The position numbers and the translations under genes are program-made. From Pseudanabaena sp. BC1403 (lineage in GTDB: Bacteria; Cyanobacteriota; Cyanobacteriia; Pseudanabaenales; Pseudanabaenaceae), in assembly GCF_002914585.1 (NCBI RefSeq), contig NZ_PDDM01000032.1:1-53685 (forward strand): 53,685 bases of DNA. Direction: 5' to 3'. The notes under the pieces were generated by a model. It had not been told where the DNA came from. It made no database searches and worked only from the letters and a program-made list of their open reading frames with translations. This document shows, piece by piece, positions 8,359 through 18,847 of this stretch. How positions within the stretch are numbered: the stretch's first letter is position 1; each line of letters starts with the position of its first letter.

Positions 8359-9741
8359 TTATTTCCAGATATTTTCCCAGAATGGGACATCCATAGGATC
8401 AGGTAGACTAGAGATGTTCATTTTACGGCGAATATCAGCGATATTCCAACCTGTTAACTTAGATAGATTTTGAGCTTCTTGCTCAAATCGTGGACGTAGC
8501 GATCGCTGATATTCTTTACCTGCGTCACAGTTGGTTTCGCCTTTAAACGCATGTCTTAGAACATAGCGCCCTTGGAAAGATTCTTGATTTGAGGTTTCCT
8601 TAAATGTTAAGTCTTCGGGGAATTTATCGCGGTTGTAACGAATATGTAAGCGTGTAATAAATACTCGACCATCATTAGTAATGACAGGAGGAAAACGGCG
8701 GCTTGATGGTTGAACAGAATCTGAAGAGTCTTGCCAAAAGACACCTGCTTTACGAAGTTCCTCTTGCGAGAGCGGCTCGGCAGAACAAGGATCGCAGCTT
8801 GACATATCCCATGCGTATTCTAAGAAAGCAACTTTGCGCCCTTCTTTATTATAAGAAGTCTTGAACATAGACTTATAGAAGTCACCAAATTCACTCTTCA
8901 CATAGACAGGAATATCATCACCCGATGGCACTTTGATCGTGCGATAGTTGGCTACTTCAGCTTGCCCCTTGGGTGAAAGAATATAGACTAGCAAGTCTTG
9001 ATCGCCGTTAGCATTTAGCATTCCTAAACGGATTGGCAGCATGAACTTTGGTGATTCATATGCCATCATTAGAGGTCTTAGTGATTGTGATCCTGTTTTA
9101 TTTAGTTCCGCAATATTCACCTTTGCCACAAAGAACTTCATGTTTTGGCGAATATATGGCTGAAGTATTTCTTTTGCTCCTTGGGGGATTTTGTAATCAT
9201 TGTCTATTAGCCAAGATTCCAAACCATCAGAGTCTTTGGCACTGAGAATTAGAATGTCATATTCTCCAACTGCAAACTTAGCTTCGATGGTGACTTGATA
9301 ATTATCACGACGCGCTCTAGATTTGCTTGTAGGAGCAACAGTAGAAGGTAGTGGCACAGGACTTAATAATCCATCGTCCTCATACCTTGCACAGGGATCG
9401 GAGTCAAAGTATTCGACTAATCGAGGAGCGCTAAAGGAATCAAGACGATCGATGATTTTCTGTTCGCCGATGCGAACTTGTTCTTTTTTTAACAATACTG
9501 GCACTGGCACAACCAGAGCGAAGTCTTTGACATCTCCTTGATAGTCATTTGCCATTGTTAAAACTGTGCGCTTGCCATCACGGGCTATCACAACTTGCGA
9601 AGCTTTGTTAAAGAGACTAGCATCGGCTTGTGATACATAAAAGCCACAGAAGGCAAAGACTGCTGGGGAATAGGCAAAGACAACTAAGCAAGAAATGGCA
9701 GTACTCAATAGTACGCGCATCCAAACAAGAAATTTTTTCAT
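8359..9741 (-). CDS. DUF2330 secreted protein, copy 1
   Basis: A 460-aa protein with a signal peptide (basic MKKFLVWMR, hydrophobic stretch to about residue 30, cleavage near VFA-FCGF). The mature part starts with the DUF2330 signature FCGFYVSQADASLFNKASQ and DYQGDVKDFALVVPVPV. Paired cysteines (DPCARYE, SSCDPCSAEP, TNCDAGKEY) suggest disulfides outside the cytoplasm. It is nearly identical to the next gene upstream; differences cluster in a Ser/Pro linker near residues 120-145 and in the segment before residue 355. The family function is unknown. It is last in the minus-strand run Coq4-like, RnfD-like, DUF2330, DUF2330. Confidence 0.85.
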   Translation of the reverse strand: MKKFLVWMRVLLSTAISCLVVFAYSPAVFAFCGFYVSQADASLFNKASQVVIARDGKRTVLTMANDYQGDVKDFALVVPVPVLLKKEQVRIGEQKIIDRLDSFSAPRLVEYFDSDPCARYEDDGLLSPVPLPSTVAPTSKSRARRDNYQVTIEAKFAVGEYDILILSAKDSDGLESWLIDNDYKIPQGAKEILQPYIRQNMKFFVAKVNIAELNKTGSQSLRPLMMAYESPKFMLPIRLGMLNANGDQDLLVYILSPKGQAEVANYRTIKVPSGDDIPVYVKSEFGDFYKSMFKTSYNKEGRKVAFLEYAWDMSSCDPCSAEPLSQEELRKAGVFWQDSSDSVQPSSRRFPPVITNDGRVFITRLHIRYNRDKFPEDLTFKETSNQESFQGRYVLRHAFKGETNCDAGKEYQRSLRPRFEQEAQNLSKLTGWNIADIRRKMNISSLPDPMDVPFWENIWK

Positions 9742-9847: not shown

Positions 9848-11323
9848 CTATTTCCAAATGTTTTCCCAGAAGGGAACTTGGACAGGATCAGGTAGACTAG
9901 AGATGTTCATTTTACGGCGAATATCAGCGATATTCCAACCTGTTAACTTAGATAGATTTTGAGCTTCTTGCTCAAATCGTGGACGTAGCGATCGCTGATA
10001 TTCTTTACCTGCGTCACAGTTGGTTTCGCCTTTAAACGCATGTCTTAGAACATAGCGCCCTTGGAAAGATTCTTGATTTGAGGTTTCCTTAAATGTTAAG
10101 TCTTCGGGGAATTTATCGCGGTTGTAACGAATATGTAAGCCCCGGCCTTGGAAAGATTCTTGATTTGAGGTTTCCTTAAATGTTAAGTCTTCGGGGAATT
10201 TATCGCGGTTGTAACGAATATGTAAGCGTGTGATAAATACTCGACCATTATTGCTTGGGAACGGCATAGGGCGACGAATACGCCCACCTGAAGAAGTGTT
10301 TATATTTGAATCCAGCCAAAAGACACCTGCTTTGCGAAGTTCCTCTTGCGAGAGCGGCTCGGCAGAACAAGGATCGCAGCTTGACATATCCCATGCGTAT
10401 TCTAAGAAAGCAACTTTGCGACCTTCTTTTTCATAGGAAGTCTTGAACATGGACTTATAGAAGTCACCAAATTCACTCTTCACATAGACAGGAATATCAT
10501 CACCCGATGGCACTTTGATCGTGCGATAGTTGGCTACTTCAGCTTGCCCCTTGGGTGAAAGAATATAGACTAGTAAATCTTGATCGCCGTTAGCATTTAG
10601 CATTCCTAAGCGAATAGGCAGCATGAACTTTGGTGATTCATATGCCATCATCAGAGGTCTTAGTGATTGCGATCCTGTTTTATTTAGTTCCGCAATATTT
10701 ACCTTTGCCACAAAGAACTTCATGTTCTGGCGAATATAGGGTTGAAGTAGTTCTTTTGCTCCTTGGGGAATTTTGTAATCATTGTCTATTAGCCAAGATT
10801 CTAAACCATCAGAGTCTTTGGCACTAAGAATCAGAATGTCGTATTCTCCAACTGCAAACTTAGCCTCGATGGTGACTTGATAATTACCACCACGGGTTTT
10901 TGCTTCCGTTGCAGGAGCAGCAGATCTTGTTGCGCCCGCAAGGGTTACTCTGTCATAGGCTTCATATCTTGCGCAAGGGTCGGAATCAAAGTATTCGACT
11001 AAGCGAGGGGCGCTAAAGGAATCAAGGCGATCAATAATTTTCTGTTCACCGATGCGAACTTGCTTTTCTTTCAGTAATACTGGCACTGGCACAACCAGAG
11101 CAAAGTCTTTGACATCTCCTTGATAGTCATTTGCCATCGTTAAAACTGTCCGCTTGCCATCACGAGCTATCACAACTTGCGAAGCTTTATTAAAGAGACT
11201 GGCATCGGCTTGTGATACATAAAATCCGCAGAAGGCAAAGACTGCGGGTGAGTAGGCAAAAACGACTAAACAAGCAAGGGCGGTGCTTAAAAGTACACGC
11301 ATCCAAATCAGAAATTTTTTCAT
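9848..11323 (-). CDS. DUF2330 secreted protein, copy 2, with internal tandem duplication
   Basis: A 491-aa paralogue of the downstream gene with the same signal peptide (MKKFLIWMRV... VFA-FCGF) and mature DUF2330 core. It is longer because a 29-residue segment (LHIRYNRDKFPEDLTF through NQESFQGR) occurs twice in tandem near residues 370-430. The duplication is in frame (87 bp), so the protein is still complete. The linker near residue 125 differs from copy 1. The function is unknown; an exported or periplasmic role is inferred from the signal peptide and cysteines. It follows the RnfD-like gene with a hairpin between. Confidence 0.85.
   Translation of the reverse strand: MKKFLIWMRVLLSTALACLVVFAYSPAVFAFCGFYVSQADASLFNKASQVVIARDGKRTVLTMANDYQGDVKDFALVVPVPVLLKEKQVRIGEQKIIDRLDSFSAPRLVEYFDSDPCARYEAYDRVTLAGATRSAAPATEAKTRGGNYQVTIEAKFAVGEYDILILSAKDSDGLESWLIDNDYKIPQGAKELLQPYIRQNMKFFVAKVNIAELNKTGSQSLRPLMMAYESPKFMLPIRLGMLNANGDQDLLVYILSPKGQAEVANYRTIKVPSGDDIPVYVKSEFGDFYKSMFKTSYEKEGRKVAFLEYAWDMSSCDPCSAEPLSQEELRKAGVFWLDSNINTSSGGRIRRPMPFPSNNGRVFITRLHIRYNRDKFPEDLTFKETSNQESFQGRGLHIRYNRDKFPEDLTFKETSNQESFQGRYVLRHAFKGETNCDAGKEYQRSLRPRFEQEAQNLSKLTGWNIADIRRKMNISSLPDPVQVPFWENIWK
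10059..10227. repeat. 87-bp in-frame tandem duplication inside DUF2330 copy 2
   Basis: Two direct copies of 82 bp (10059-10140 and 10146-10227) appear identical and are separated by the 5 bases CCCGG. The offset is exactly 87 bp, so the reading frame is kept. The neighbouring paralogue has a single copy. Identity of the copies points to a recent event, or to an assembly artefact. Confidence 0.9.
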
Positions 11324-12442: not shown

Positions 12443-13114
12443 CTATGGCATATATTCTTTGGTTGGTTCTATACCTAATTCTTGCCGCCACTCTATCAAT
12501 GCTCTCTCCCAATTTTCTTCCCATTTCTTTGCAAAAAAAGGTTTAGCTTTTGCTCCTAGTCGATAACCGATCGCAATTTGCTCCAACAATTTATCCAATT
12601 GTTCTGGATGTTTGAATAATGTGCTGAGTAATCCACCAGCAATTAGCACTGCTGACATCGTGCGGTGGGTTTGGGCTAGCTCAAAAGCCTTCAGTCCCAA
12701 TTCTCCAAATACATCTGTACTAAATCCCGCCACAATGTGCCAAATGTCATGGGTTTGACGCATCCGCAAGAGAAAATAGCTGACATCATCTTCGACTTTA
12801 ACACGCCGATAGAAGTTAGGGTCAAAACCAGAATCTTTGATATAAGTAGCATAGGTATATCCGAGGGAATCTGGAGATAGTTGCAGCAATGCCTCAAGAT
12901 TAACCGATGGAGCCAAGTAACGCTCTTGAAAGAGTGCCGCCACTTCGGGTTTCGATTTGACATATTCAACGGCTAATTCTGTAGCTTTAGTGTGCCGCAG
13001 CCCGTCTTCTACATCATAAACAGATTCAGTTTGGGTGGGATCTCTCAATAAAGTTACAACTCCTTTTAGAGTTGAGAGAAAGTCAAGGTTTTGCCGCAAA
13101 TTTGCTAGTGTCAT
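12443..13114 (-). CDS. Coq4 family protein
   Basis: A 223-aa protein of the Coq4 family. It has the zinc motif HDIWHIVAGFSTDVFGE (HDxxH-x11-E) near residues 120-136 and the expected flanking helices (LGLKAFELAQTH). In eukaryotes Coq4 is needed for ubiquinone synthesis. Cyanobacteria make plastoquinone and not ubiquinone, so a quinone or carotenoid-related role is plausible but unproven. The start overlaps no intact gene; just upstream lies a protein-kinase remnant. A hairpin follows the stop. Confidence 0.85.
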   Translation of the reverse strand: MTLANLRQNLDFLSTLKGVVTLLRDPTQTESVYDVEDGLRHTKATELAVEYVKSKPEVAALFQERYLAPSVNLEALLQLSPDSLGYTYATYIKDSGFDPNFYRRVKVEDDVSYFLLRMRQTHDIWHIVAGFSTDVFGELGLKAFELAQTHRTMSAVLIAGGLLSTLFKHPEQLDKLLEQIAIGYRLGAKAKPFFAKKWEENWERALIEWRQELGIEPTKEYMP

Positions 13115-13132
13115 AATTTTTTAAGGTAGCAA

Positions 13133-13300
13133 TTACTTGATTGTACAAAATGACTTCGATGGTTGTAGTTCCGCGATCGCTAAAAATGTCTGCCCCATAC
13201 CACCTCGCCCCAATAGCTTGACCAAACGATAGCGATTGTCCAGTATCAACTTTGTATCGCAGGTTTGGCAAACTTCTATCCGATAAATTTTAATCAGTGA
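13133..13300 (-). pseudogene. Remnant of a cyanobacterial Ser/Thr protein kinase N-terminus
   Basis: The minus-strand frame ending in a TAA at 13133-13135 reads CQTCDTKLILDNRYRLVKLL followed by GRGGMGQTFLAI. This is a C-x2-C element, then DNRYR, then the Gly-rich ATP loop (GxGGMGxTF), exactly the start of 4-Cys-type cyanobacterial kinases. The frame stops at FCTIK, at the position of the catalytic lysine, with the rest of the kinase gone. There is no ATG in frame upstream. A different frame over this stretch also gives a short ORF into the Coq4 gene; I consider that one spurious. Confidence 0.7.
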
Positions 13301-13335
13301 GTCAATTAAATCTTGGGAGTTTTTTACATCTCCGA

Positions 13336-14460
13336 TTAGGTGCTTGTATCTATCGTTAACCTTGGTAAAGTAATACAGATAACTGTTTGATGCCTAACTA
13401 TATTCTCAACAATCTCACTAGAACTTTTAATAGAAAATCCCCCTCCATGTATTTCCACAATGCGTTTGGCAATGATCAAGCCCAGTCCATTACCTTGCTG
13501 TTCGTAATGCTTGCGCTCAAACTGCATATATGCACCGACATTAGTTATTTGTTCATCGGTCATCCCTCGTCCTTGATCAATAATATGTAGTGTGAAAAGT
13601 TTTTCATTGACTCTACTAATTAATCGCACAGGAGTACCAGATTCGGAAAACTTAAAGGCATTCTCGACGATCTCTTCGACTAATTTAGTTAAATATTTGG
13701 ATGACATCCTAATGATCGCATCTTCTAAATCTAGTTCCAAATCTTTCTTTCTCTTTGCTTTTTCAGCAAAATTATGAGCAGAATAGCAAATTATATCTTT
13801 GACATCAGTAAATTCGGGATTATCTTGCCAAACATTAGGACTTGTAGCGATCGCCTCAAGCTCAGAAAAAAATATAAAATTTTTCGCTAATCTATGCAAA
13901 CGCAGACCACAATCATAAATAGTCTGAATTGAATCAATTGTTTCTCTAGGTTCCATCGATTCATAATAATTTAATAGGAGGTCTGACATCCCTAAAATGC
14001 CATGTAGTGGAGTTAGTAATTCATGAGGTAAACAATGAGCAATGTTTAACCTAAAGTTATCTAATTTTGCTGCATTTTCTTGCTTAATTACTTCCTGCTT
14101 CTCAATTCGAGTAGAAATTGCTTTCAGTAATTCTTGAGACGTAAATGGTTTTGTTAAATAATCATCTGCCCCAAGCTCCATTCCTTCCCGCATATGAGTT
14201 CGAGAGTTTTTTGCCGTCAAGAAAATGAAAGGAATATTCGCAGTTAGGGGATTTTGACGTAATATTTTCAAAACATCAAATCCATCTAGTTCTGGCATCA
14301 TAACATCGCACAAGATCAAGTCTGGATGCTCTTCTTCTGCCATTTGCAACCCTCCAATCCCATTTTGTGCAGTAATCGCATGGAAATTTTTTAAGGATAG
14401 AACCTCTTCGACATCCTCTAAAACTTGTTGATTATCTTCAATAATTAAAATTCGTTTCAT
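13336..14460 (-). CDS. Response regulator-histidine kinase hybrid (REC-HisKA-HATPase)
   Basis: A 374-aa cytoplasmic protein from ATG 14460 (MKRILIIEDN); a TTG start 15 bases earlier is less likely. An N-terminal receiver covers residues 3-120 with phosphoacceptor D52 (LILCDVMMP) and K104 (YLTKPF). A HisKA follows with H146 (LPHELLTPLHG) and a HATPase_c with IVENAFKFSESG and GNGLGLIIAKRIVEIHGG. A receiver in front of a kinase lets another kinase control it. It is the last of three signalling genes on this strand; the upstream neighbour is a second REC-kinase 52 bases away. The HisKA arginine is Leu (HELLTPL), a small change from HELRTPL. Confidence 0.93.
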   Translation of the reverse strand: MKRILIIEDNQQVLEDVEEVLSLKNFHAITAQNGIGGLQMAEEEHPDLILCDVMMPELDGFDVLKILRQNPLTANIPFIFLTAKNSRTHMREGMELGADDYLTKPFTSQELLKAISTRIEKQEVIKQENAAKLDNFRLNIAHCLPHELLTPLHGILGMSDLLLNYYESMEPRETIDSIQTIYDCGLRLHRLAKNFIFFSELEAIATSPNVWQDNPEFTDVKDIICYSAHNFAEKAKRKKDLELDLEDAIIRMSSKYLTKLVEEIVENAFKFSESGTPVRLISRVNEKLFTLHIIDQGRGMTDEQITNVGAYMQFERKHYEQQGNGLGLIIAKRIVEIHGGGFSIKSSSEIVENIVRHQTVICITLPRLTIDTST

Positions 14461-14512
14461 GACAACTTGTTCCAATAGCTATATATAATAATTTAGAGGA
14501 TAGGATGAGCTA

Positions 14513-16027
14513 TTAACTGATTGGCAAAGTAACTTTAAAAACAGTCCCTTGATTGACTTCGCTCTCAACTGCGATTTCACCACCATGCGCATCAATGGCA
14601 TATTTAACTATTGCTAATCCCAGTCCTGTGCCTGTGATATTTCTGACATTAGCCGCACGATGGCATAGATTAAATATAAAAGGCAAATCTGCTTTAGGGA
14701 TACCAATACCTTGATCTTGCACCCAAAATGTGACTCTGCCTTTCTCATAGATCAGTCTAAATTGAATATTGACACTATTCTGGGAATACTTAACCGCATT
14801 GGACAGAAGATTTGAGAGAATGTAACGAACTAAATCATGGTCTACATATGTTGGTTCAAGATCGCCATGACAGGAAAAATTAATTACTATTGATTCATTC
14901 TGTCTATTAGCAGGAAGGAGTTTGATCTCTTCCACTATCTCCAAGCAAAGTTTCTCTAGATTTATCAAGGTCGGATTGAAATTAGATAATCCTAGAGCAA
15001 ATATACCAAGAGTTAGCATATTCTCAATCAAACTATTCATCTGAATGACTGAATTTTTAATCCGCTTTAAACGACCCACCCTCTTGTCATTTGGGTAGTT
15101 AGGTTCCTCCAACAAATCGGTGGAGAGCAAAATATTGGTGAGAAATGTTCGCATTTCATGGGATGCCATAGCAATAAATCGTGATTTGAGATTGTTAAGT
15201 TCTTTCTCATTATTTAGCTCTCGATTGATTTTGCTTTTTTCTACCTCTAAGGATTCTGCTTTACGTCGATCGCTATTATCCCAAAGCACCAAAACTGTCC
15301 CTTCGATTAACTCTGATAATTTGCGAATAGGCGACGCACTATCACCTACAGGTTTCTTGATGCCATAGCGATCAATGAGTGCAGTATAGTCATTTAGGTA
15401 AGCTACTTGTCCAGTTTGCAAAACTTGGGAAACAGGATTCACAACTTCGTCGCCGTTATTTTCATCAATTAGCTGTACAACTTCAGTAACATCTTTTCCT
15501 AACGCCTCTGATTGAGTCCATCCTGTTAAACTTTCGGCGGCAGGATTCATGTAAGTAACTGCGGCAACACGATCCGTGGCAATGACGGCATCACTCGTTG
15601 ATTTCAAGATCGTAGAGAGAAAATCCTCGCGCTCAGCAAGTTGTCTTTCCATCTGACATTTGTACAGCGCCGTTTCGATAACAACACGTAAATCTTGCTC
15701 ATTGAATGGCTTCACCAAATAGCCAAATGGCTCGGAGTTTTTTGCGCGTTCCAAAGTTGCATCATCAGTATGAGCCGTAATATAAACTACTGGAGTTTGA
15801 AATTCTTGGCGCATGATCGTCGCGATCGCAATCCCATCTTGCTCTGATCCTCTTAAAACGATATCCATTAACACTAAGTCGGGGATGTTTTCAGAAACAC
15901 TAGCGATCGCATCTTCAGAAGAAGTAACTGTATCTGTAACAACATATCCCAACAACGTTAGTTCTTCTGAAATAACTCTGGCAGTAATCACCTCATCTTC
16001 AACGACTAAAATTTTGGTTGCCGACAT
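14513..16027 (-). CDS. Response regulator-PAS-histidine kinase hybrid
   Basis: A 504-aa soluble protein. A receiver covers residues 1-125 with D55 (LVLMDIVLRG) and KPF. A PAS domain follows at about 135-255 (STSDAVIATDRVAAVTYMNPAAESLTG), then a short coiled linker and HisKA with MASHEMRTFLTNILLSTDLL. The HATPase has SNLLSNAVKYS and GTGLGLAIVKYAIDAHGG. The HisKA box reads HEMRTFLTN, with Phe where Pro is usual, so kinase/phosphatase balance may be altered. It is flanked by the ethylene-receptor-like kinase upstream and a REC-kinase downstream on the same strand, and may receive phosphate from the former (inference). Confidence 0.93.
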   Translation of the reverse strand: MSATKILVVEDEVITARVISEELTLLGYVVTDTVTSSEDAIASVSENIPDLVLMDIVLRGSEQDGIAIATIMRQEFQTPVVYITAHTDDATLERAKNSEPFGYLVKPFNEQDLRVVIETALYKCQMERQLAEREDFLSTILKSTSDAVIATDRVAAVTYMNPAAESLTGWTQSEALGKDVTEVVQLIDENNGDEVVNPVSQVLQTGQVAYLNDYTALIDRYGIKKPVGDSASPIRKLSELIEGTVLVLWDNSDRRKAESLEVEKSKINRELNNEKELNNLKSRFIAMASHEMRTFLTNILLSTDLLEEPNYPNDKRVGRLKRIKNSVIQMNSLIENMLTLGIFALGLSNFNPTLINLEKLCLEIVEEIKLLPANRQNESIVINFSCHGDLEPTYVDHDLVRYILSNLLSNAVKYSQNSVNIQFRLIYEKGRVTFWVQDQGIGIPKADLPFIFNLCHRAANVRNITGTGLGLAIVKYAIDAHGGEIAVESEVNQGTVFKVTLPIS

Positions 16028-16098
16028 TGCTATGTTTCCCTCGATATTTTTCTTTGAGAAACCATTTAAGAATTATTTTCTGCGGTCAACAGATCTAA

Positions 16099-16135
16099 GA
16101 TATCCCCCTTAAAAAGGGGGATTAAGAGGGATATC
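16099..16135. repeat. Short inverted repeat GATATCCCCCTT...AAGAGGGATATC
   Basis: Arms GATATCCC and GGGATATC enclose C-run and G-run blocks (CCCCCTTAAAAAGGGGG). It sits between the two kinase genes on the minus strand. It resembles half of the composite repeat at 5483-5568, so both are likely members of one dispersed family, possibly acting as a terminator. Confidence 0.65.
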
Positions 16136-16154
16136 GTCAATTTTTAAATGATTT

Positions 16155-18080
16155 CTACGTCATTAACATAGGCTTGATTATACCTGAAATTTTGAATGCT
16201 GTGCCATGACAATTTTCTAAGACGACTTTCCCCTTTAGTTGTTTAGTAGCGAGAGAGTAGACGAGTTGTAGTCCTAAGTTCTTGGCATATTTGAGATCGA
16301 TTGCTTCCGCCATCCCTACACCATTATCACGAACGGTTAGAGTATAGCTATTGGCTTCATCTCTAGCGAACTCGATCATAATTTGACCAGAACGCCCTTC
16401 AGGAAAAGCGTACTTATAAGAGTTGGAAACTAACTCGTTAATAATCAGACCGCAATAAATCGCCGTGTCAATATCGACTGTAATAGGATCAGCATTAATA
16501 TTCAAAGATATCCCAGCAGAATTAGATGCATAGGAATTCGTCAAATTTCGAGTCAAGCCTTGGATGTAAGCAATAAAGTCAATATTGTCTAGATCCTTAG
16601 CGCGATATAACTTTTCATGGAGCAGTGACATAGCTTGAATGCGATCGCGGCTACTATTGATGATCTCGCGAGTTTTTGGGTCTTCTACTTGTCTTGCCTG
16701 AAGGTAGAGCAATCCTGAGATGATTTGCAAGTTATTCTTCACTCGATGATGAAGCTCCTTTAGCAAAACAACTTCGCGTTCGTAGGCAGCTCTTAGTTGT
16801 GCTTCTGATTGTTTGCGCCAAGTAATATCTAGAGCGACAGAACCAATTCCATTAACTTCTCCATTGCGATCATAATGGGGTTCAATAGTCAAATCGAAAT
16901 ATCGCTCTTGACTATTAGCGGTTATCAGCACCTCTTCCCGTAAACCCACACCGTTTGTGAGTACTTGTTGTTTGAGGTGGCTTAGTCTTTGAGCATTTTC
17001 TGCAACCTCTAAAATCTCGGAATCTTGCTTTCCTAATACTGATTCCAAACTATTGCCTATAGCCGAGTTGTATAGCCAAATATACCGTAGCTCTAGATCT
17101 TGCATCGAAACTGTAATTGGAGAGTTTTTTAAGACTAGATAGAAACGCTCTTCTGTAAGTTTTCGTTCACTGATTTCAATTTCTAAAGCAGCATTCGCTT
17201 GGGAAAGTTCAAATGTGCGCTCTTGCACTCTTGCTTCTAGTTCAACGTTTAGGTTGCGGATATATTCTTCAGCCAGTTTGCGATCGGTGACATCCTTAAC
17301 TCGCACCATATTGATCGCTTTGCCAGCGACATTGATTGTTTTTGCTGCGATATTCCCCCAAAAAAGCTTACCTTTTCTAGTGATATATTCTATCTCGCTA
17401 CTCCAAAAACCTATCCGATGCATCTGTTCAACAATCGAGACGATCTCTTCATCGCTAAACTGCCGCTTTTGTAAAGTACGTCCCTCAATACCGATCATCT
17501 CATTTTTACTATCAGTTTCAAACATTTCCACAGCTCTTTGATTGCAATCAAAAATCAGCAAATTTATGGGATCGACCAAAAAAATAGCATCAGCGGATTC
17601 GTTAAAAATTGCTTCTCTAAGTTCTCGACTACGAAGTAATTCAAGTTCTGTCTTCTTTCGCTCGGTAATCTCGCTAGCTAAGGTTACATTGATCGCTGCC
17701 AATTGAGATGGGCTAGGGAGTGCAAGAAGTTGGGGAATCAAAGGGATAAGACTAGCAGCCGTAAAAACTGAAATAATCGCTGTAAGTGCTTTTATAGTTC
17801 CTGACACCCAGTAAGTGGGATACCAAAGTGTCCATACCTCCATTAAGTGCGTAGTTCCACAGAAAATTATAAACAGACCAAATAATAAGAAAATCCACTT
17901 AAAAGGTAAGTCTTCGCGCTTACGGACAAAGTAAACTAAACCGATGGGAATTGAGTAGTAGGCGATCGCCGTTAGTACGTCCGACAAAATATGCAGCCAA
18001 ACCAGCCCAGAATTCCATAAATAGCAATGTCCATGGGGAATAAATGCTCCAGAATCAAAAAACTCATGAATTAATTCCAT
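16155..18080 (-). CDS. Ethylene-receptor-like sensor histidine kinase (EBD-PAS-PAS-HisKA_2-HATPase)
   Basis: A 641-aa protein from ATG 18080 (MELIHEFFDSG); an earlier in-frame start adds only 8 residues. Three N-terminal membrane helices (about 25-125) match the plant ETR1 ethylene-binding domain: D34, Y41, I44, P45, C74 and H78 (FCGTTHL) keep the spacing of ETR1 D25, Y32, I35, P36, C65 and H69, the Cu(I)/ethylene residues. Two PAS regions follow (about 165-290 and 320-450, the second with GIGSVALDITWRK), then HisKA_2 (LLKELHHRVKNNLQIISGL) and a HATPase. It should autophosphorylate at HHRVKNN and signal to a REC protein, probably one of the two downstream hybrids. Known cyanobacterial relatives (SynEtr1) bind ethylene and affect phototaxis. 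Confidence 0.92.
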   Translation of the reverse strand: MELIHEFFDSGAFIPHGHCYLWNSGLVWLHILSDVLTAIAYYSIPIGLVYFVRKREDLPFKWIFLLFGLFIIFCGTTHLMEVWTLWYPTYWVSGTIKALTAIISVFTAASLIPLIPQLLALPSPSQLAAINVTLASEITERKKTELELLRSRELREAIFNESADAIFLVDPINLLIFDCNQRAVEMFETDSKNEMIGIEGRTLQKRQFSDEEIVSIVEQMHRIGFWSSEIEYITRKGKLFWGNIAAKTINVAGKAINMVRVKDVTDRKLAEEYIRNLNVELEARVQERTFELSQANAALEIEISERKLTEERFYLVLKNSPITVSMQDLELRYIWLYNSAIGNSLESVLGKQDSEILEVAENAQRLSHLKQQVLTNGVGLREEVLITANSQERYFDLTIEPHYDRNGEVNGIGSVALDITWRKQSEAQLRAAYEREVVLLKELHHRVKNNLQIISGLLYLQARQVEDPKTREIINSSRDRIQAMSLLHEKLYRAKDLDNIDFIAYIQGLTRNLTNSYASNSAGISLNINADPITVDIDTAIYCGLIINELVSNSYKYAFPEGRSGQIMIEFARDEANSYTLTVRDNGVGMAEAIDLKYAKNLGLQLVYSLATKQLKGKVVLENCHGTAFKISGIIKPMLMT

Positions 18081-18107
18081 ATTTTTAGACCTACTACACA
18101 GCATTGT

Positions 18108-18443
18108 CTAGCTAACAGCAAAATCTGTAAACTGTCGCATATAGCTTGAATGGAATCCATTAACGATATTTTGTTTAGGAATACCCATCTCTGCGAGTCT
18201 AACACCAATATCAAACTCCGTGCCATTATGCTGAATCCAGATTTTACCGTCCTTAATATCTAGATGCAGTACACAGCCATAGATCCGATGTTTATTGCGC
18301 CAACCAACATGCGCTAATTGGTAATGATCGCGCTCTGTGTCAAAAATTAATTGTGACTCAACTTCAGAATCTGAAGAACCGTAATTTGCTAACTCTGTTA
18401 GTAAATCTTGGACTTTTTGACGGTATTCAGTTAGCTTTGCCAT
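18108..18443 (-). CDS. xisI: XisI family protein
   Basis: A 111-aa protein of the XisI family. Marks are ESQLIFDTERDHYQLAHVGW, RIYGCVLHLDIKDGKIWIQ and the end GTEFDIGVRLAEMGIPK. In Anabaena XisI and XisH control excision of the fdxN element, but many cyanobacteria carry the pair without xisF or that element, so the role here is unknown. It overlaps the end of xisH by 13 bases, giving coupled translation. No site-specific recombinase is nearby. Confidence 0.92.
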   Translation of the reverse strand: MAKLTEYRQKVQDLLTELANYGSSDSEVESQLIFDTERDHYQLAHVGWRNKHRIYGCVLHLDIKDGKIWIQHNGTEFDIGVRLAEMGIPKQNIVNGFHSSYMRQFTDFAVS

Positions 18444-18847
18444 TTTACAATTTCCTCCTCTTCAGGTAAATAAATTGCCAATTTGAGTTGATATTGCTGA
18501 ATTGTCATTTGGATAAATGGAAGTTGAAAAAATGAGTCATAGGTGCTCAAGGGAATAGCCAAATACAATTTGTATTCTGTATATTGTTCTTGCATCAATA
18601 GACGATAGTTAAGATATTGTCCCAGCGCTGTATGAAACTCTGAAACTGCTGACCCACTTAAAAAGCTTTTTATCTCAATAGCAATTTTTTCGTTTCTACG
18701 TTCTGCCGCAATTATTCGTTCTGCCCCCAAATCCACATAGAGAGAACCTAAACCAAACTCAAGTGAAAGAGGATCATGAGTTATTGTCCAACCATCTTTT
18801 TCTAAAGCAATCTTGACAGCATTATGAAAAATATCGCGTGCAGACAT
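18431..18847 (-). CDS. xisH: XisH family protein (PD-(D/E)XK-like)
   Basis: A 138-aa protein of the XisH family, with MSARDIFHNAVKIALEKDGW at the start, then VDLGAERIIAAER and IAIEIKSFLSGSAVSEFHTA. The D...E-I-K arrangement has the look of a PD-(D/E)XK nuclease core. It is the first gene of the xisHI pair. Nuclease activity is inferred only from the motif. Confidence 0.92.
   Translation of the reverse strand: MSARDIFHNAVKIALEKDGWTITHDPLSLEFGLGSLYVDLGAERIIAAERRNEKIAIEIKSFLSGSAVSEFHTALGQYLNYRLLMQEQYTEYKLYLAIPLSTYDSFFQLPFIQMTIQQYQLKLAIYLPEEEEIVKWQS

Follow-up and report, generated by a model that had tools for sequence, protein, structure and literature searches.

Which protein receives the signal of an ethylene-receptor-type kinase whose kinase part is of the HisKA_2 type, and whose gene stands in front of genes for two further kinases with N-terminal receiver (REC) domains? 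The question is raised by a stretch of 53,685 nucleotides (nt) from Pseudanabaena sp. BC1403 (contig NZ_PDDM01000032.1), the whole of which is called the window here. The receptor gene is followed on the same strand by gene 2 (REC-PAS-HisKA-HATPase) and gene 3 (REC-HisKA-HATPase). A first-pass annotation, made from the sequence alone, gave the position of the receptor gene correctly, leaving its minus strand unmentioned, and proposed a phosphorelay in which ethylene sensing feeds both REC-HisKA proteins. Judging from domains, gene neighbourhoods and sequence comparison, we consider it probable that an ETR1-type receptor on a HisKA_2 kinase signals via the receiver of gene 2 to a second kinase, with gene 3 maybe acting later.

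The start of the receptor given in Table 1 was taken because the Pseudanabaena relatives start at the same Met; a second in-frame ATG at 18104 would give a protein of 649 amino acids (aa). The first-pass annotation had named a profile search with the ethylene-binding domain (EBD) as a check. The Pfam profile ETR1_N matched residues 26-121 with 147.5 bits (E=1.4e-43, cut-off 27), and a genome-wide profile search found a single match in the genome (E=1.9e-44). The HisKA_2-type kinase and the two PAS domains that had been described were likewise given by Pfam, the latter as PAS_9 (residues 164-266) and PAS_4 (319-423), together with HATPase_c at 545-631 (E=4.4e-8), and the domain matches are far beyond chance. 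The second His of the HHRVKNN motif (H445) is kept in the listed relatives, the first being Y or N in some, and the ATPase boxes read NELVSN, DNGVGM and NLGLQLV. With HisKA_2 and HATPase domains present and H445 as the predicted phosphoacceptor, the receptor is placed among the HisKA_2 histidine kinases, for which the genome holds three profile matches.

The residues D34, Y41, I44, P45, C74 and H78, matched by the first-pass annotation to ETR1 D25, Y32, I35, P36, C65 and H69 (a numbering that we adopt from it), are all present, and the alignment adds I71, matched to ETR1 I62, which we take to be the seventh required residue. The seven columns are without variation across 17 aligned rows, and all seven residues are found in the window and in 29 of 30 EBD rows of HisKA_2 type (three duplicates), the thirtieth being cut by a contig end. 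Seven residues are needed for ethylene binding by ETR1, as stated in PMC6682694 (section 11) and PMC11819568 (section 6). An AlphaFold2 model of residues 1-143 (mean predicted local distance difference test score 79.7) has three long helices (24-54, 61-86 and 90-120), in agreement with the three-helix N-terminus described at first, and a fourth at 124-142; the three are modelled as in ETR1-type receptors, with their placement in the membrane predicted. A sequence search of the Protein Data Bank (PDB) with the domain gave no relative at E<=1, and a PDB fold search with the domain model gave no match at E<=0.001, which weighs neither for nor against. The closest named relatives are from a P. frigida metagenome-assembled genome (86%, best segment), P. 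biceps PCC 7429 (74%) and Pseudanabaena sp. FACHB-1998 (73%). Profile and residues (seven of seven) together support the assignment of the window gene as a putative ETR1-type ethylene receptor. Among the 140 EBD rows of the survey below, Asn stands at the ETR1 D25 position, with the other six residues kept, in six (L142, L160, L107, L168, L177 and L184), all from proteins without a HisKA_2 match.

ETR1_N matches were found in 14 of the 38 genomes of the order and in 208 of the 388 genomes of the class (Cyanobacteriia). In the set of neighbourhoods described next, EBD-PAS-PAS-HisKA_2 ranked second among the architectures with 23 rows (duplicates counted), behind EBD-HisKA-HATPase-REC (25), and the receptor protein alone is therefore a further member of a known family. 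Neighbourhoods were compared in 120 fetched regions, 18 loci of nearest relatives and the window; the 120 consist of 15 from 19 order-level places (without the window's own and three truncated at contig ends) and 105 from the best-scoring class-level places listed, further matches lying beyond that list; L049-L051, which duplicate L071, L070 and L069, were not counted. Domains were called with hidden Markov models (HMMs) grown from the window's own proteins, Pfam being used for the window proteins and selected survey proteins.

Behind all 27 distinct kinases with both EBD and HisKA_2 lies a gene on the same strand with one type of receiver, here called MDI-type, in 26 cases as the next open reading frame (ORF) and in one as the second. 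Around the acceptor, this receiver has the sequence [LI][VI]LMDIxL, followed by four or five residues and then DG[IV] (the search expression of the script being slightly wider), and a partner was counted within two ORFs and 300 nt downstream. The same receiver-type partner was found behind none of the 106 EBD kinases without HisKA_2 and behind 13 of 24 HisKA_2 kinases without EBD. In this sample, it is the kinase type behind the ethylene domain, and not the ethylene domain alone, that predicts the partner. The window fits the pair, its receiver gene lying downstream on the same strand after a gap of 127 nt; 22 of the 27 pairs are spaced by no more than 23 nt, and 12 of those 22 overlap (our own ORF calls). 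Of the partners, 24 are REC-PAS-HisKA-HATPase proteins; that of P. biceps is REC-HisKA-HATPase-REC, and those of L167 and of L165, where a contig start truncates the EBD, are REC-PAS-GGDEF-EAL. Outside the sample, plasmid pA of Kovacikia minuta carries an EBD-PAS-PAS-PAS-HisKA_2 gene overlapping a REC-PAS-HisKA gene with the same receiver motif, the sole HisKA_2 match among the 11 plasmid EBD loci examined, of 18 matching records (own HMMs).

Four EBD rows (L174, L178, L110 and L126) were set aside for want of downstream sequence. L062 and L116, apparently broken EBD+HisKA_2 genes spread over several ORFs, were counted as partnerless EBD kinases without HisKA_2; the partner gene is present further downstream in both. 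The class of HisKA_2 kinases without EBD was taken from ten genomes chosen for holding EBD kinases and from three survey-locus ORFs, and it is not clean, L116_6 being an EBD gene fragment and L193_3 a partner kinase with a weak HisKA_2 match. In L191 and L208 a partner of similar motif lies more than 300 nt away. In a tree of the EBDs (L049-L051, L062, L066 and L165 left out), which rests on few columns and leaves many forks unresolved, the EBDs of HisKA_2 type do not form a single clade (14 changes, at least three of them forced), and the nearest EBD to that of the window is 86% identical. As a separate observation, six similar Pseudanabaena PAS-HisKA_2 kinases (L190, L202, L203, L205, L206 and L207) have no receiver gene within 300 nt downstream, and before each lies a gene of 460-464 aa that overlaps it in the ORF calls; these genes gave no match to our own two-component HMMs.

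Kinase and receiver also vary together. Distances between kinase cores (HisKA_2 plus ATPase) correlate with those between receivers at r=0.811 (39 of 43 pairs, four without a partner HisKA being left out; no gap limit), as against 0.320 for the partner's HisKA and 0.397 for its HATPase. After thinning to 31 pairs the values are 0.768 against 0.384 and 0.444; the 25 EBD-only pairs give 0.902 against 0.425 and 0.556 and, thinned to 18, 0.844 against 0.378 and 0.491. Common ancestry alone is insufficient for this contrast, because the partner's own kinase domains share species and neighbourhood with the receiver.

Exchanges around the pair are found within Pseudanabaena itself. In the window, L067, L069 and L070, genes for EBD-PAS-PAS-HisKA_2, REC-PAS-HisKA and REC-HisKA proteins are consecutive on one strand. 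P. biceps has the same receptor and receiver (the latter 80% identical to the window's), lacks gene 3, and carries behind the receiver a HisKA-HATPase-REC output whose kinase part is 46-51% identical to those of four Pseudanabaena EBD hybrids. Genomes G017, G021 and G029, without an ETR1_N match, encode a PAS-PAS-HisKA_2 kinase whose core shares 67-71% identity with that of the window; their receiver, 72-75% identical to the window's, is part of a REC-PAS-PAS-HisKA-HATPase-REC protein. In the tree of the HisKA_2 cores (L193_3, on a very long branch earlier, and L201_4 left out, four rows added) these three kinases stand beside the window's clade (100/99 for the nine-row set, 87/60 for the joining fork), and the EBD label needs at least six changes, four or more of which well-supported branches make unavoidable. 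In G009, an EBD-PAS part 80% identical to the window's over 271 residues is fused to a HisKA-HATPase-REC hybrid, and no MDI-type receiver partner was found at that locus. The receptor of G030 (78% over 393 residues) is cut by a contig end and a gene 3 relative (65%) starts another contig, fragments that would fit the window's gene order. XisHI and Coq4, which flank the three genes in the window, differ between related loci. From these swaps and the core tree it follows that the kinase-receiver pair is constant and that sensor and output are exchanged around it. The EBD thus appears as one of several sensors mounted on a HisKA_2-receiver pair, and we infer that the sampled cyanobacterial HisKA_2 kinases usually have the MDI-type receiver as their acceptor.

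In the mechanism that we propose, ethylene bound at Cu(I) within the three-helix domain would alter autophosphorylation of H445; according to PMC11819568, ethylene inhibits the AtETR1 kinase and, by indirect evidence, the SynEtr1 kinase. The phosphoryl group would pass from H445 to D55 of the gene 2 receiver, as co-occurrence, co-variation and the motif suggest. The phosphorylation state of the receiver would then switch the PAS-HisKA kinase behind it, so that the signal would go from kinase to kinase. In Pseudanabaena, gene 3 might pass the signal one step on, towards regulators coded elsewhere.

Several points weigh against this proposal. The receiver motif was set after viewing the data, so that the counts stand and a Fisher value is no test; the surveyed EBD places are the best-scoring ones listed and not a random set, and for 11 of the 24 HisKA_2 kinases without EBD the next 300 nt contain no partner. 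The sequences compared by distance are related to one another and not independent. When two rows from a list of four with odd outputs are removed from the thinned set, the contrast over the remaining 29 pairs shrinks to 0.763 against 0.598 (HisKA) and 0.575 (HATPase), and among the EBD rows, distances of the EBD correlate with those of the receiver as well (0.711, thinned 0.605) and with those of its own kinase (0.701, thinned 0.562). Co-transcription of the receptor gene and gene 2 is uncertain, given the 127-nt gap with an inverted repeat. The proline of the H-box, kept by most other partner kinases listed, is absent from gene 2 in the four whole Pseudanabaena copies (SHEMRTFL twice, SHEIRSFL and SHEIRTLL); without it, kinase activity of the Pseudanabaena gene 2 may be changed, and a role as phosphotransferase or phosphatase becomes conceivable.

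Such a role would turn gene 2 of Pseudanabaena into a phosphate sink or a device for reverse flow, acting on its own or another receiver and not as a working kinase. PMC5964349 offers a precedent in PhyK of Caulobacter, a phosphotransferase, but H290, the N-box and both G-boxes are retained in the window's gene 2, and we think this reading unlikely. There is likewise a small chance that the kinase acts via gene 2 while its EBD reads copper or another small ligand, or merely anchors the protein in the membrane and leaves sensing to PAS: the related kinases of G017, G021 and G029 carry a pair of PAS domains without an EBD, and the Asn found for D25 in EBDs of other architectures points the same way. 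Against it stand the seven residues, kept in every HisKA_2-type row that covers them, and the ethylene binding of distant EBDs from Synechocystis (PMC6682694) and Azospirillum (PMC11819568, section 6). Chance adjacency of unrelated signalling genes could draw on the large number of two-component genes in these genomes and on the variable XisHI and Coq4 neighbours; set against the partner counts and the receiver-specific co-variation it is very improbable overall. For gene 2 we reject it on those counts, and it stays as a reading for gene 3.

Gene 3 is also where a fixed three-protein relay would differ from signalling through gene 2: the ethylene kinase would phosphorylate the gene 2 REC, the gene 2 HisKA the gene 3 REC, and the gene 3 kinase an output. 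The three genes are consecutive on one strand in the four loci named above, a triple of HisKA_2 kinase and two REC-kinases occurs without EBD in L194, and gene 3 has all the receiver and kinase motifs looked for, with D57 (numbered from the TTG) as acceptor. A REC-HisKA third gene stands behind the pair in four of five Pseudanabaena loci, P. biceps being the exception, but in the 22 EBD+HisKA_2 loci from other genera no third REC-kinase was found over a distance of 500 nt. Relatives of gene 3 at 60% or more occur in three other genomes with the window-type order, in G030 and, at 62%, in G029, which has no EBD match; weaker relatives (37-48%) are widespread, and some match at E<=1e-60 was found in 33 of the 38 genomes of the order. 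We therefore regard the fixed relay as somewhat doubtful. An extra step through gene 3 is plausible in Pseudanabaena, if weakly supported, and is not a rule. Of the original proposal that ethylene sensing feeds two REC-HisKA proteins, the part concerning gene 2 is well supported by co-occurrence and co-variation and the part concerning gene 3 weakly so; likewise, where co-occurrence of the three genes in related genomes had been expected, it was found for receptor and gene 2 and not for the set of three.

The first-pass annotation had noted that the arrangement differs from that of SynEtr1, and this holds. SynEtr1 (slr1212 of Synechocystis) carries a cyanobacteriochrome and is modelled to signal to the response regulator slr1213, which raises csiR1 and slr1214 (PMC6682694, section 3; PMC6508509). 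Both systems have an N-terminal EBD, a histidine kinase and receiver genes near by. In contrast to SynEtr1, the receptor of the window has PAS domains, a HisKA_2 kinase and kinases as partners: no GAF domain was matched at E<=0.001, two PAS regions lying in that place, and no slr1213-like DNA-binding response regulator was found among the scanned neighbours, which comprise the two REC-kinases, XisH, XisI, Coq4 and an NQR2/RnfD/RnfE family protein (Pfam). GeiEtr1 and GeiEtr2 of Geitlerinema sp. PCC 7105 are also cyanobacterial EBD kinases with seven conserved residues; unlike the window's receptor, both have a GAF domain, and section 11 of PMC6682694, which mentions no REC-kinase partner, groups them with genes for a lycopene cyclase, or for a diguanylate cyclase domain protein and a starch phosphorylase. 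AzoEtr1 of Azospirillum brasilense is likewise an EBD-PAS-kinase followed by a receiver gene, overlapping there, for a 135-aa response regulator (PMC11819568, section 6). L217, from another Azospirillum strain, has protein lengths equal to those of AzoEtr1 and its regulator, with a HisKA kinase and a lone receiver (own HMMs). As read in L217, AzoEtr1 thus differs from the window's receptor in having a kinase called as HisKA and, for a partner, a receiver that stands alone and has a different motif.

For the proposed step from kinase to kinase, CheA3-CheS3 of Rhodospirillum centenum offers a parallel in which one kinase phosphorylates the receiver part of another receiver-kinase and thereby acts on the output of the latter (PMC3868531); it is a chemotaxis-type system with other sensors, and the analogy is functional only. 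HisKA_2/HWE kinases sharing one receiver are known in alphaproteobacteria (PMC5964349). PcrK-PcrR of Xanthomonas campestris, in which a receptor kinase for a plant hormone (cytokinin) works via cyclic di-GMP (PMC7700396), may be compared with the GGDEF-EAL partners in L165 and L167, which make a direct link from ethylene to cyclic di-GMP possible; it has a CHASE sensor, belongs to another bacterium and is not the window's own arrangement. PMC7700396 also refers, in general terms, to many kinds of putative ethylene-receptor output. Among the titles and abstract openings of the papers listed, we found no published description of HisKA_2 EBD kinases with a REC-kinase partner, which is weak evidence.

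We see an even chance that these loci represent a second, general ethylene output route of cyanobacteria, in which the EBD was mounted several times on HisKA_2 kinases, each with one co-evolving receiver, which gates a second kinase in most cases and a GGDEF-EAL protein in two of the sampled genomes. If so, ethylene would act by setting how active a second kinase is, or by setting cyclic di-GMP, and not through a DNA-binding regulator. Among the papers cited here, the only cyanobacterial ethylene pathway with described later steps leads from SynEtr1 via a response regulator to a small RNA, and the loci described here would be an apparently recurrent alternative. The ethylene domain would be an exchangeable front piece on a fixed kinase-receiver pair; the finding names a concrete partner, and the sensor and output swaps within Pseudanabaena serve as natural controls.

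Table 1. Features of the window and the two GGDEF-EAL partner genes of the survey, with coordinates
Feature	Coordinates	Strand	Remarks
EBD-PAS-PAS-HisKA_2-HATPase kinase gene (receptor)	16155..18080	minus	641 aa from ATG 18080
Ethylene-binding domain (ETR1_N), residues 26-121	17718..18005	minus	profile match and model helices
Stretch with the seven ETR1-type binding residues (D34, Y41, I44, P45, I71, C74, H78)	17847..17981	minus	alignment
HisKA_2 phosphoacceptor domain, residues 442-517	16530..16757	minus	Pfam E=2.6e-28; motif HHRVKNN from residue 444
Gap between receptor and gene 2 (127 nt)	16028..16154	unstranded	inverted repeat AATCCCCCTTTTTAAGGGGGAT at 16102-16123; genome repeat search
Gene 2, REC-PAS-HisKA-HATPase, probable direct partner	14513..16027	minus	504 aa; Pfam and neighbourhood survey
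Receiver of gene 2	15677..16012	minus	motif MDIVLRGSEQDGI, acceptor D55; T84 and K106 kept
Gene 3, REC-HisKA-HATPase, possible later step	13336..14475	minus	379 aa from TTG; Pfam and neighbourhood survey
XisI	18108..18443	minus	27 nt before ATG 18080 of the receptor
XisH	18431..18847	minus	upstream of the receptor, same strand
Coq4	12443..13114	minus	downstream of gene 3
REC-PAS-GGDEF-EAL partners of EBD+HisKA_2 kinases	L165:1642-3738; L167:4600-6729		Pfam

The inverted repeat in the gap has one exact copy and three copies with one mismatch in the genome, and none was found for the reversed control. It was rejected as a clear terminator, not being among the four terminator-like sites predicted, and, with four copies at up to one mismatch, as a frequent repeat. 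Promoter and terminator predictions were not used (18 promoters found against 17.7 expected, four terminators against 4.3). For gene 3, an ATG at 14460 is a more likely start than the TTG at 14475.

The two REC hybrids are not the sole neighbours of the receptor on its strand, as had been stated, since XisI and XisH lie upstream and Coq4 follows gene 3. XisH and XisI were rejected as part of the system; each model matched the window's own protein alone in the fetched stretches. In G030, other genes separate the receptor from a 96%-identical ABC gene. Between gene 3 and Coq4, at 13115-13336 on the minus strand, an open stretch reads LDNRYRLVKLLGRGGMGQTFLA and then meets a stop; it resembles a leftover N-terminal piece of a Ser/Thr protein kinase, the family being judged by eye. 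Further along the minus strand, 8359-9741 and 9848-11323 encode tandem, closely similar proteins of 460 and 491 aa, and the 491-aa protein contains an internal repeat of the 28-residue stretch LHIRYNRDKFPEDLTFKETSNQESFQGR (both by eye).

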